Positions 36,462-45,766 of a DNA stretch of 53,680 bases are shown here, piece after piece. Each line of letters begins with the position of its first letter. The first letter of the stretch is position 1. The stretch spans positions 46,490 through 100,169 of the forward strand of contig NZ_AOMD01000027.1 in the NCBI RefSeq assembly GCF_000336915.1, written 5' to 3'. The notes under the pieces were generated by a model that saw nothing but the letters and a program-made list of their open reading frames with translations, had not been told where the DNA came from and did not search any database. The DNA is from Halococcus saccharolyticus DSM 5350. GTDB taxonomy: Archaea; Halobacteriota; Halobacteria; Halobacteriales; Halococcaceae. The position numbers were made by a program, and so were the translations under genes.

Positions 36462-36551
36462 GTGAAACGGATGACGAATACGGTCGAAAAATACGAAAAC
36501 ATCGACAGTTACGTAGAAATAGCGGAAGGAATCTTCGAGGTGGGAGAATGA
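36462..36551 (+). CDS. 29-aa ORF coupled to the Amt-PII gene
   Basis: A GTG-started frame encodes 29 residues, [20 protein letters not shown] then AEGIFEVGE, acidic and likely helical. Its TGA overlaps the Amt ATG as ATGA. It is placed exactly at the predicted transcription start of a good TATA promoter, so ribosomes would have to read it before amt. It may be a real microprotein or a translation-coupling leader. An internal ATG at 36471 would give 26 aa. No family is recognised. Confidence 0.55.
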
Positions 36552-38266
36552 TTGGGGGTGCGATGATTCCGCTCCAGGCGGGCGGGATGGAAGCGGTCGT
36601 CGAGAGCGTCAACCTCGTGTGGGTGCTCACGGTCACGTTCCTGATCTTCTTCATGCACGCGGGGTTCGCCATGTTGGAGGCGGGCCAGGTCCGCGCGAAG
36701 AACGTCGCCAACCAGCTCACGAAGAACATGCTGACGTGGTCGATCGGCGTCGTAGCGTTCTTCCTCGTGGGCGCGGGCGTCTCGTCGGTCGTCGGCGGGC
36801 TCACGAGCGGCAGCGGGGCCGCGCTCGCCGACCTGACCGCGGTCTGGAGCGGCGACTCGGCCGCGTGGGTGAGCTGGCTGTTCGGCGCGGTCTTTGCGAT
36901 GACCGCCGCCACCATCGTGAGCGGCGCGGTCGCGGGGCGGTGCAAGCTCCGGGCGTACGTCGGCTACACGATCCTGCTCGCGGCGATCATCTACCCGGTG
37001 GTCACGGGCTTCACGTGGGCCGGTGGCTTTCTCGCCGACGTTCTCGGCGTGGGCTTTCACGACTTCGCCGGCGGGATGATCGTCCACGGGATGGGCGGGA
37101 TCGCGGGCCTGACGGCGGCGTGGGTGCTCGGCCCGCGAATCGGTCGCTACGGGACGGACGGCTCGGTGAACGTGATCCCCGGCCACTCGATGTCGTTCGC
37201 GGTGCTCGGCACGCTGATCCTCTGCTTCGGGTGGTACGGGTTCAACGTCGGCACCGCGGCCGCGCCGCTCGCGATGACCGATGGTGCGGCCGAACTCGGC
37301 TCGTTCAGCTACGTTGGTCGGGTCGCGCTCACGACCACGCTCGGCATGGCCGCGGGCGCGATCGGGGCCGCCGGAGCCTCGTTCGCGAAGAACCGGAAGG
37401 TCGACACGCTGTACGTCGCCAACGGGATGCTCGCCGGACTGGTCTCGATCACTTCGATCACCGACGCGATCGTCTGGCCTGGTGCACTGGTCGTCGGCCT
37501 GCTCGCGGGCATCCAGCTCCCGCTGGTCTTCGAGTTCGTCGAGAAGCGCCTCCGGATCGACGACGTCTGTGCGGTGTTCCCGGTCCACGGCTCGGCGGGC
37601 ATACTCGGCGCGCTCGCCTTCCCGTTCGTCGCGGTCGACGGGTTCGCGGTCGACGTGCTCGCTGCCCAGGTCATCGGCGTCGCCGTGATCGCGGGCTGGA
37701 CGATCGTCGCGACCGCTGCGGTGTTCGGCGCGCTGAAGGCGGTCGGCCAGGCGCGCGTCACGCCCGAACACGAACGCGACGGGCTCGACAGCGCGGAACA
37801 CGGCGTCGATACCTACCCCGAGTTCGGCCTCGGCGATTCGGGTGGGCCGGTCGCCGACGGTGGCGCAGTCTACGCGGCCGCCGACGAGGAGGTCCGGACC
37901 GATGGAGGGCTTCCGAACGACGGCGGCATCAAGATGGTCACGGCCGTCGTCCGGCCGGACAAACTCGGTGCGGTGAAAAGCGCGCTCGCGGAGGTCGGCG
38001 CGCCCTCGCTCACGGTGACGAACGTCTCCGGGCGGGGCAGCCAGCCCGTGAAGAAGGGCCAGTGGCGCGGCGAGGAGTACACCGTCGACCTCCATCAGAA
38101 GGTCAAAGTCGAGTGCGTGGTAGCCGATATCGCCGCCGACGACGTGGTCGAAGCGATCGTCGAGCGCGCCGCGACCGGCCAGCCGGGCGACGGCAAGGTG
38201 TTCGTCACGCCGATCGAGGACGCCGCCCAGATCCGGACTGGGACTCGGGGACGGGAGGCTGTCTAA
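36548..38266 (+). CDS. Ammonium transporter fused to a PII protein
   Basis: A 572-aa fusion. Residues 1-410 are a full Amt channel with about 11 helices, including the pore motif [15 protein letters not shown] (first pore His) and [12 protein letters not shown] (second pore His). After a linker of about 50 residues, residues 460-572 form a complete PII/GlnK domain: [20 protein letters not shown], a T-loop with [20 protein letters not shown] (Tyr511 in the position that is uridylylated in bacterial PII), and the C-loop [12 protein letters not shown]. In most organisms GlnK is a separate protein that plugs Amt; here regulator and channel are one chain. A small ORF precedes it with ATGA overlap. 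Confidence 0.92.
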
Positions 38267-38271
38267 CGCCC

Positions 38272-38475
38272 ACTTTTTTACAGAGAGTCCTCCCTCGCGC
38301 TCGCTGCGCTCGCGCTCAGTCGAACCCCCTCCAAAAACCTGGACTAAAAACACCCGCTCGCTCACTTCGTTCGCTCGCGGTGGGATCGCTGGCACGTTCC
38401 GCAACCGCAGCCGCACCGCCGAAGCCCTCGGCCACTCGCTACGCTCGTGGCCTCGCCCTTCATCCGCCAGGCCCG
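38272..38475 (+). repeat. Dispersed structured repeat, copy 1
   Basis: A non-coding 200-base unit between the Amt-PII gene and hemL, with order: T-tract, a CTCGCGCTCGC-type run, a 21-base block CCAAAAA-N-C-N-GGAC-N-AAAAAC (38331-38351), TGGGATCGCTGGC, GCACCGCCGAAGCCCTCG (38413-38430), a hairpin GGCCAC/GTGGCC (38430-38452), and TCGCCCTTCATCCGCCAGG (38453-38471). Copies 2 and 3 have the same order. Orientation follows the gene upstream of it. Confidence 0.8.
38274..38280 (+). terminator. T-tract terminator of the Amt-PII gene
   Basis: A run of six T residues lies 8 bases past the stop codon, the typical archaeal terminator. The dispersed repeat copy 1 begins here. Confidence 0.5.
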
Positions 38476-39860: not shown

Positions 39861-39953
39861 GCGCCGGATTGGGGTGTCGGGCTGAAAGACGTTACTGAGC
39901 GACGGTGGCGGTGCGGCCGGCGGCCGCGGAGCGGCAGCGGTCGCGGGGCGGTT
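39861..39953. other. GC-rich spacer upstream of hemL
   Basis: This part of the 309-base gap between hemL and the HTH regulator gene has a GCGGCCGCCGGCCGC-type palindrome and no gene. The remainder of the gap is repeat copy 2. Confidence 0.4.
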
Positions 39954-40160
39954 CCTGGCGGATGAAGGGCGAAACCCGCTTCGCGGGTCGAGGGCTTCGG
40001 CGGTGCTGTTGGGAGATAGTCGTGGAGAACGGCAGCGTCTGCGCGAACGCAGTGAGCACGGTTCACCGCGAGTGCCGAAGGCACGAGCGGCCGTTTTTGG
40101 TCCGGATTTTTGGCCGGGGTTGAGCGCGAGCGGAGCGAGCGCGAGGCCTCGGTGAAAAAA
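39954..40160 (-). repeat. Dispersed structured repeat, copy 2
   Basis: Same module order as copy 1, on the minus strand, downstream of the HTH regulator. It contains the 21-base block with two A5 tracts (40093-40113), the GCACCGCCGAAGCCCTCG core (39989-40006), a hairpin ACCCGC/GCGGGT with a 3-base loop (39974-39988), and CGCCCTTCATCCGCCAGG (39954-39971). A further hairpin GTGCC-TTC-GGCAC lies near 40072-40084. It starts at the regulator's T-tract. Confidence 0.8.
40155..40160 (-). terminator. T-tract terminator of the HTH regulator gene
   Basis: Six T residues on the minus strand, about 10 bases past the stop codon, matching the position of the T-tract after the Amt-PII gene. Confidence 0.45.
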
Positions 40161-44614: not shown

Positions 44615-44661
44615 CCTGCGGTCGCTCTGCGACCACAGGGCTCAGGAGAGCAAGCTCTCCT
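44615..44661. repeat. Two hairpins at the far end of repeat copy 3
   Basis: CCTGCGGTCGC/GCGACCACAGG (44615-44639, one mismatch, 3-base loop) and AGGAGAGC-AA-GCTCTCCT (44644-44661). They extend copy 3 towards the threonine synthase-like gene start and are absent from copies 1 and 2. Confidence 0.65.
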
Positions 44662-44807
44662 GGCGGATGAAGGGCGAGGCCCGTGGAGCGGGCCGAGGGC
44701 TTCGGCGGTGCTGTGCGGTGGGCGGTTGCGGAGAGCGCCAGCGATCCCACCGTGAACGAGGCCGCAGGCCGAGTGAGCGGGTGTTTTTAGTCCAGGTTTT
44801 TGGAAGG
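44659..44807 (-). repeat. Dispersed structured repeat, copy 3
   Basis: On the minus strand, downstream of the aspartoacylase-like gene. It holds the 21-base A5/A5 block (44783-44803), TGGGATCGCTGGC, GCACCGCCGAAGCCCTCGG (about 44693-44711), a hairpin GGCCCG/CGGGCC (44678-44694) and CGCCCTTCATCCGCCAGG (44659-44676). It is the closest relative of copy 1, with long identical stretches outside the hairpins. Confidence 0.8.
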
Positions 44808-44809
44808 GG

Positions 44810-45766
44810 TTAGTAGTGATCGATGTCGGTTCCGACCGAGCAGACGTACTCGCCGGTAGCGACCTGTGGCAGCCGGCGGGTTCGCCAGAACACGCCGTCG
44901 GCATCGGCGGTGGTCTCGGCTTTCACCGTCCCGAACGCGTCGGTGACGTGAAAGAGTCTGTCTCCCTGCTCGACGCTGTCGCCGAGCTCGGGCGCGAAGT
45001 CGACGAGGCCACCGGCGGGCGCACCGTACTGTTCGAACCCGGTCGCACGGACCTGGTCGTCGGGGTCGACATCACCATCGAGGAACCCGTACGCCGTGAG
45101 CACGTTGAAGATCCCCTCGACGCCGATCGCGACGCTCTCGGGATCGAGTCCGACCGCACCGCCGAGCTCGGGATCGATGGTCGGGACACCTTCGTCGGGG
45201 GCGGCACGGGCGAGCTGGCCGTCGGGACCCTTCTGATCGAGGACGTGGCCGCAGTCGAAGGTTTTGGCGAGTTCGAGACACTCGCTGTGGAGGTGGTGGC
45301 GCGGACCACATCGGACTCTGGTCTCGTGGATCATCCGACTCGTCGAGCCCTGGTGGAGATCGAGCACGAGGTCAGCGCCGGTGGCGGCCTCGAACGCGGC
45401 GGCGGCGATGCGTTCGGAGGAGGAGCCGTGCTCGTCGCCCGGAAAGGCCCGATTGAGCTTGGTGTCGTCGATCGGGTTGCGGTGTTCGGCCACCTGGAAG
45501 GCGTGGAGGTTGACGATCCCGACGATCAAAACTGTGCCGGCGAGGTCGTCGGGATCGAGCTGCGGAACCAGCGATCGAACGACGCCGACGCCGTTGAGTT
45601 CGTCGCCGTCGCTCGCGGCCTGAATGTAGAGCGTATCGCCCTCGGCTGCGCCGTTGACGACACAGACCGGCAGTCCCAGCGGGCTCCCGTCGCGGGTCTC
45701 GCCGACCGACAGCCGCCCGGTGTCGATCTCACCGGGAGCCGCGTTCGCGGTTCCGAGGCTCGTCAT
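44810..45766 (-). CDS. Succinylglutamate desuccinylase/aspartoacylase-like protein
   Basis: A 318-aa carboxypeptidase-like zinc hydrolase that should deacylate an N-acyl amino acid. The family's first zinc motif, usually HGDE-x-NG, reads SDGDELNG near residue 53, so Asp replaces the ligand His. Other sites are normal: HRNPIDDTKLNRAFPG near 95 and LDLHQGS near 125 (second His). A C-terminal lipoyl-like beta domain follows, with LGDSVEQGDRLFHV. The substrate is unknown. The Asp for His change may be a subfamily trait. Start MTSLGTANAAPGE. Confidence 0.82.
   Translation of the reverse strand: MTSLGTANAAPGEIDTGRLSVGETRDGSPLGLPVCVVNGAAEGDTLYIQAASDGDELNGVGVVRSLVPQLDPDDLAGTVLIVGIVNLHAFQVAEHRNPIDDTKLNRAFPGDEHGSSSERIAAAAFEAATGADLVLDLHQGSTSRMIHETRVRCGPRHHLHSECLELAKTFDCGHVLDQKGPDGQLARAAPDEGVPTIDPELGGAVGLDPESVAIGVEGIFNVLTAYGFLDGDVDPDDQVRATGFEQYGAPAGGLVDFAPELGDSVEQGDRLFHVTDAFGTVKAETTADADGVFWRTRRLPQVATGEYVCSVGTDIDHY

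Follow-up and report, generated by a model that had tools for sequence, protein, structure and literature searches.

Ammonium transporters fused to a PII protein are common in Halobacteriales and may act as self-gating channels

Results

The fused gene and its surroundings

The window, which is the whole 53,680-nt stretch of Halococcus saccharolyticus DSM 5350 DNA that was analysed, carries on its forward strand at 36548..38266 a single open frame of 572 aa, in which an ammonium transporter (Amt) is followed by a PII protein. The stop-to-stop frame measures 608 aa, and the translation comprises the 572 residues and one terminal stop. ATG codons 1, 6 and 14 are all start candidates (the two alternatives lie at 36563 and 36587); homologues align from about residue 3–19, and the exact start is possibly any of the three. 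Its neighbours are an acyl-CoA dehydrogenase-like frame on one side and, on the other, a convergent frame resembling glutamate-1-semialdehyde aminomutase, both named by inspecting their translations; the gene stands by itself between them.

A single Amt and a single PII were detected in the genome, which is 99.6 % complete and comprises 3.45 Mb in 36 contigs, and both are the fused gene. The original prediction had proposed a search for separate glnK genes; no second PII or Amt was detected elsewhere in the genome, so that the only detected PII is the fused one. There is one glutamine synthetase gene, and the profile of the GlnD domain (PF08335) is absent from the genome.

The window also contains several repeats. 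A 41-nt inverted repeat (95 %; 38323–38363 and 44771–44811) and a 57-nt direct repeat (88 %; 39953–40009 and 44658–44714) are both intergenic, lie beside several genes and are probably pieces of a dispersed short repeat of the H. saccharolyticus genome. The left arm of a perfect 49-nt inverted repeat (1–49 and 1328–1376) starts with the first nucleotide of the window and may continue outside it.

Transporter domain, linker and PII domain

The ammonium transporter domain spans residues 24–423 (36617..37816, forward strand; PF00909, E=3e-91, 306.5 bits against a curated cut-off of 23.2). TIGR00836 (amt), a model of one subfamily, also matched over its full length, with a score of 323.4 bits that falls slightly short of the curated cut-off of 343.3. 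The equivalents of the Phe gate, Trp148, Asp160 and the twin His are present; among 99 fused homologues the pore residues F107, W148, D160, H168, F215 and H318 are identical in 98–99, and the position of the selectivity residue Ser219 is occupied by Thr in the fusions. The fold of the domain was matched by Foldseek to AmtB and Af-Amt1, including the AmtB–GlnK complex entries 2ns1 and 2nuu. It ends in a C-terminal tail (residues 403–427, 37754..37828, forward strand), whose counterpart region in E. coli AmtB binds GlnK. In 48 fused proteins R403, V404, H408, E409, G412, L413, D414, E417, H418, G419, T422, Y423, P424 and E425 are invariant and, judged from these residues, the tail that contacts GlnK in E. 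coli is intact in the fusion.

The two domains are joined by an acidic, Gly/Asp-rich linker of about 33 residues (428–459, 37829..37924, forward strand; pLDDT<50). Across 75 relatives it is 21–54 residues long (median 30), with 24 % Gly, 15 % Asp and a mean net charge of -4.6. It includes an RTDGG motif (residues 450–454, 37895..37909, forward strand) in which Asp452 and Gly453 are invariant, and R-x-D-G is present in 73 of the 75 linkers. A fusion-specific protease site at this motif was ruled out, since RxDGG also occurs in the Amt tails of unfused pairs, both Amt1 and Amt2. In the linkers of four loci from several genera (L024, L040, L066 and L080) we noticed similar inserts of about 17 residues (ERLxESRSSxELRSDGG). 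A palindrome in the linker DNA of L080, CGTCAGAGCTTCGCTCTGACG, may represent a small palindromic element within coding sequence.

The PII (GlnK-type) domain occupies residues 462–565 (37931..38242, forward strand; PF00543, E=6e-27, 94.5 bits against a cut-off of 25). Its ferredoxin-like core fold matches GlnK2 of Haloferax mediterranei (4ozn; Foldseek, 72 % identity), and its residue numbers are those of E. coli GlnK plus 460. The T-loop (residues 497–515, 38036..38092, forward strand) carries Gln499 (Q39), Arg507 (R47) and Tyr511 (Y51), and is followed by Lys518, the K58 equivalent. In E. coli numbering Arg9, Gln39, Arg47, Lys58, Gly87-Asp88-Gly89-Lys90 and Arg103 are invariant in 99 of 99 fused PII domains; at position 101 Gln replaces Arg in all 99, and the ATP/2-oxoglutarate ligands are otherwise conserved. 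In the AlphaFold2 model, which is of the monomer and gives no interface, the Amt helices and the PII core are confident, and the linker and the T-loop are disordered. With both Pfam domains far above their cut-offs and Tyr511 in place, the claim that a complete Amt and a complete PII lie in one 572-aa chain was borne out.

Tyr51 is kept in 92 of the 99 fused homologues. The remaining 7 have Phe; most of these are Halorubrum, including all Halorubrum sampled, and the genus-mates have only fused PII (the link to the genus is made through the shared T-loop and the tree position of L180). In E. coli, Y51A GlnK still regulates AmtB (PMC4274968). Given this and the Phe51 of the Halorubrum fusions, the tyrosine is unnecessary for gating, and in Halorubrum gating cannot need modification of a residue that is Phe. 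The original prediction had stressed that the T-loop tyrosine was retained although GlnD is usually lacking in archaea; the second half agrees with the lack of PF08335 in this genome, whereas retention is not general. The protein therefore does not fit a GlnD-modified PII: the GlnD domain is absent from the genome, and Tyr51 is present here yet Phe in Halorubrum. A uridylylation-type modification of Haloferax mediterranei PII is reported by work cited in PMC3831643, and a review states that no PII modification had been reported in archaea (PMC4285133).

Distribution of the fusion in haloarchaea

A scan of the genome collection kept 80 loci, and the first 82 loci include this genome's own gene (L001 and L002). 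Of these 82 loci, which come mostly from separate haloarchaeal species and include complete isolate genomes, 75 have Amt and PII within a single stop-to-stop frame. A sequencing or assembly error that joined two genes is therefore hardly conceivable; it is refuted by the same frame recurring in 75 loci, closed isolate chromosomes among them. The result likewise disposes of what had been named as fatal to the original prediction, namely such an error or a stop codon between residues 410 and 460. Because the same joined gene is found in most haloarchaeal families, the fusion is real and widespread.

PII was found in 279 of 293 Halobacteriales genomes. Classed by frame length (fused, at least 548 aa in these genomes; Amt fusion was checked directly in 106 loci), the 85 PII-containing genomes of family f2 comprise 26 with only a fused PII, 15 with both forms and 44 with only a free one, and the 96 of family f3 comprise 37, 11 and 48, respectively. 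In families f1, f4, f5 and f11 a single-copy fused PII predominates among the matches listed. By the same classes, the fused protein is the only detected PII in at least 122 Halobacteriales genomes. Elsewhere in the phylum, no fusion was seen among the PII frames listed by length, and one 343-aa frame that was fetched proved to be an unfused pair. The Amt–PII fusion is thus common in Halobacteriales and no one-off.

Fused and split genes in the Amt tree

Haloarchaeal Amt proteins fall into two clades, Amt1 with 97 fused and 31 split entries and Amt2 with 43 split entries and 2 fusions. Two loci, L095 and L178, are fusions within the otherwise unfused Amt2 clade and have long repeated ADGGEVKTDGGEIRTDGG-like linkers; they are at least two further independent Amt–PII fusions. 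In most split pairs the two genes are out of frame with each other and share 4 or 8 nt. The amt1/glnK1 genes of Haloferax and of the Halogeometricum type are in phase with exactly one stop codon between them (L012, L019, L021, L022, L028, L034, L063 and L156), which leaves them one codon short of a fusion. About 12 changes between the fused and the split state were counted on the Amt1 tree. A single origin within Amt1 of either state was rejected, as neither set forms a clade in the AU test. Repeated fusion, repeated fission or recombination between both operons may each account for this pattern.

Joint retention and loss of PII and Amt

In a draw of 96 genomes the two families agreed without exception: 88 genomes had both, 8 had neither and none was mixed. 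The 8 belong to a set of 16 PII-less genomes from nine genera and five families, and Amt was absent from all 16. Several genera (g1, g17, g26, g31, g44 and g54, among others) include genomes with and genomes without Amt and PII, and because such genera hold both kinds of genome, Amt and PII must have been lost jointly several times. In two genomes, G043 and G020, the Amt frames were broken and the PII matches weak, which suggests a shared decay of the two genes.

In the genomes tested PII was never kept without Amt, which argues that the selected job of haloarchaeal PII is control of Amt; an additional role that depends on Amt would be compatible with this. PII thus appears to be dedicated to Amt in Halobacteriales, and for a protein so dedicated tethering would be affordable, as the loss of a free pool costs little.

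Discussion

In this protein PII is tied to the channel, in place of shuttling on and off it. The fusion keeps the same working residues, so that intramolecular gating by a tethered PII trimer is the simplest reading. We propose that Amt–PII is a self-gating channel in which three tethered PII domains shut three pores at low 2-oxoglutarate, and we give this a probability of roughly 0.6. Three Amt subunits would form the usual trimer, and their three PII domains the usual PII trimer on its cytoplasmic face; the original prediction of a trimeric Amt with a built-in PII trimer is thus a reasonable one. In the PII fold beta-1 begins on the T-loop side, and the N-terminus, where the linker enters, is thus expected to face the membrane. 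With ample nitrogen, when 2-oxoglutarate is low and ADP is bound, the T-loops would stand up and Arg507 would enter each pore and shut it; with scarce nitrogen, when Mg-ATP and 2-oxoglutarate are bound, they would withdraw and the channel would conduct, PII staying attached through the flexible acidic linker. Since PII would not diffuse away, rebinding should be fast and the stoichiometry fixed at 1:1, and a modification enzyme would be unnecessary. From the homologous systems we infer that the subunits assemble as a trimer, that the tethered T-loop closes the pore and that the effectors act in this way. E. coli GlnK inserts its T-loop tip in the AmtB pore when ADP is bound and withdraws it with Mg-ATP and 2-oxoglutarate (PMC4285133), and in Haloferax GlnK, there unfused, binds AmtB1 after ammonium shock (PMC3831643).

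As the genome has no other PII, the channel finds no free PII to sequester, and classical membrane sequestration of GlnK cannot run in its usual form. The original prediction had held that such control cannot work as in bacteria; this is upheld for the present genome, where no free PII was detected, but the contrast was drawn too broadly, as Bacillota also fuse Amt to PII.

Three other explanations deserve to be weighed against the self-gating channel. The fusion may be neutral: two co-operonic genes, their products being binding partners already, would have lost their overlap in frame, and the outcome would be tolerated and reversible with no functional effect. The 4- or 8-nt overlaps of unfused pairs, the single stop in a shared frame in Haloferax and Halogeometricum, the roughly 12 state changes on the Amt1 tree and the rejection of both the fused and the split sets as clades are what would be expected of it. 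We nevertheless hold it to be unlikely, because at least 122 genomes have no detected PII other than the fused protein, which has persisted over many families, with linker length and one Asp-Gly kept within limits. It is also conceivable that the gene yields two products, the fusion and a free soluble PII, through an internal start at Met463 or proteolysis of the linker, and that GlnK shuttling persists. An ATG at the first PII beta-strand, where E. coli GlnK has its residue 3, is present in 54 of 74 homologues, and the linker is disordered in the model and has one invariant Asp-Gly. This ATG is missing, however, in the other 20, and in 4 of the 74 there is no ATG, GTG or TTG from the linker into beta-1; no conserved start lies upstream in the linker, and RxDGG, being shared with unfused Amt tails, offers no fusion-specific cleavage site. 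We thus consider two products distinctly improbable. Neither a second PII gene nor a conserved internal start was found, as a pair of Amt and free soluble GlnK would have it; by sequence, a minor free form from Met463 may be possible in some species, and a conserved free form is not supported.

The third explanation is that the main task of the tethered PII is to signal to other proteins, for instance glutamine synthetase, which would be held at the pore exit, and so to couple ammonium entry to assimilation. GlnK1 of M. mazei binds and activates glutamine synthetase, and an interaction of GlnK with glutamine synthetase has been reported for Haloferax mediterranei (PMC10651883), and PII may accordingly be more than a gate of Amt; the genome has its one glutamine synthetase gene, the linker could let PII bind other partners too, and other Amt fusions are sensors, such as the histidine kinase Ks-Amt5 (PMC5764959). 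A PII serving mainly glutamine synthetase, an enzyme of essential chemistry, would hardly be expected to vanish whenever Amt does, yet it was never retained without Amt in the genomes tested. Moreover, the T-loop has the consensus sequence found in free GlnK, and the Amt has kept its pore residues and its GlnK-contact tail, as for a PII-gated transporter. We therefore think it distinctly improbable that reporting is the main role. A further idea, which we offer very tentatively, is that haloarchaeal PII no longer serves as a mobile signal of nitrogen status but as a fixed gate, which at one time plugs the pore and at another keeps glutamine synthetase at its exit; if this were true, ammonium entry and assimilation would be switched by one covalently built machine.

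PII is usually regarded as a diffusible integrator with many targets, and in a large group of organisms the one PII detected is bound to a channel. That PII and Amt are kept or lost together makes it testable whether controlling Amt was the original task of PII and suffices as its function, and whether the T-loop has to be modified at all. For structural biology, the self-gating channel would provide a natural 1:1 Amt–PII complex that does not dissociate. Since databases label the fusions simply 'ammonium transporter', inventories of free glnK genes will miss the regulator. In the open literature, as distinct from subscription papers, we found no paper describing Amt–PII fusions; the architecture is probably already contained in domain databases. 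The Amt–histidine kinase fusion Ks-Amt5 has been described in a paper that mentions earlier sightings of Amt fusions and cites a 2009 review of them by Tremblay and Hallenbeck (PMC5764959).

The closest known systems resemble the fusion in part. The E. coli AmtB–GlnK complex (2ns1, 2nuu) consists of the same two families, with the same pore and T-loop residues and Amt C-terminal tail, and its GlnK T-loop blocks the pore; E. coli GlnK, however, is a free protein that shuttles and that GlnD uridylylates, whereas here PII is covalently part of the channel and the GlnD domain was not found. The amt1-glnK1 and amt2-glnK2 operons of Haloferax include an orthologue of this Amt1, an adjacent PII and the same tail motifs, but as two genes. 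Ks-Amt5 of Kuenenia (6eu6) and Sd-Amt1 of Shewanella denitrificans (8qj3) likewise combine an Amt module with a cytoplasmic fusion or extension; in Ks-Amt5 this is a histidine kinase and transport has been lost (PMC5764959), while the domain added here is PII, normally an inhibitor of the channel. A restriction of the fusion to archaea is ruled out by proteins of Bacillota, sampled through plasmid records only, which have the same order of Amt and P-II in 570–601 aa (Ruminococcus albus WP_013483901.1, Enterococcus raffinosus WP_222227351.1 and Monoglobus WP_320691151.1). Three Bacillota fusions (L186, L187 and L188) are annotated merely as 'ammonium transporter'. The Bacillota proteins differ from the haloarchaeal ones in their independent origin in the Amt tree, in having no Tyr51 and in another linker sequence, which has no RTDGG.
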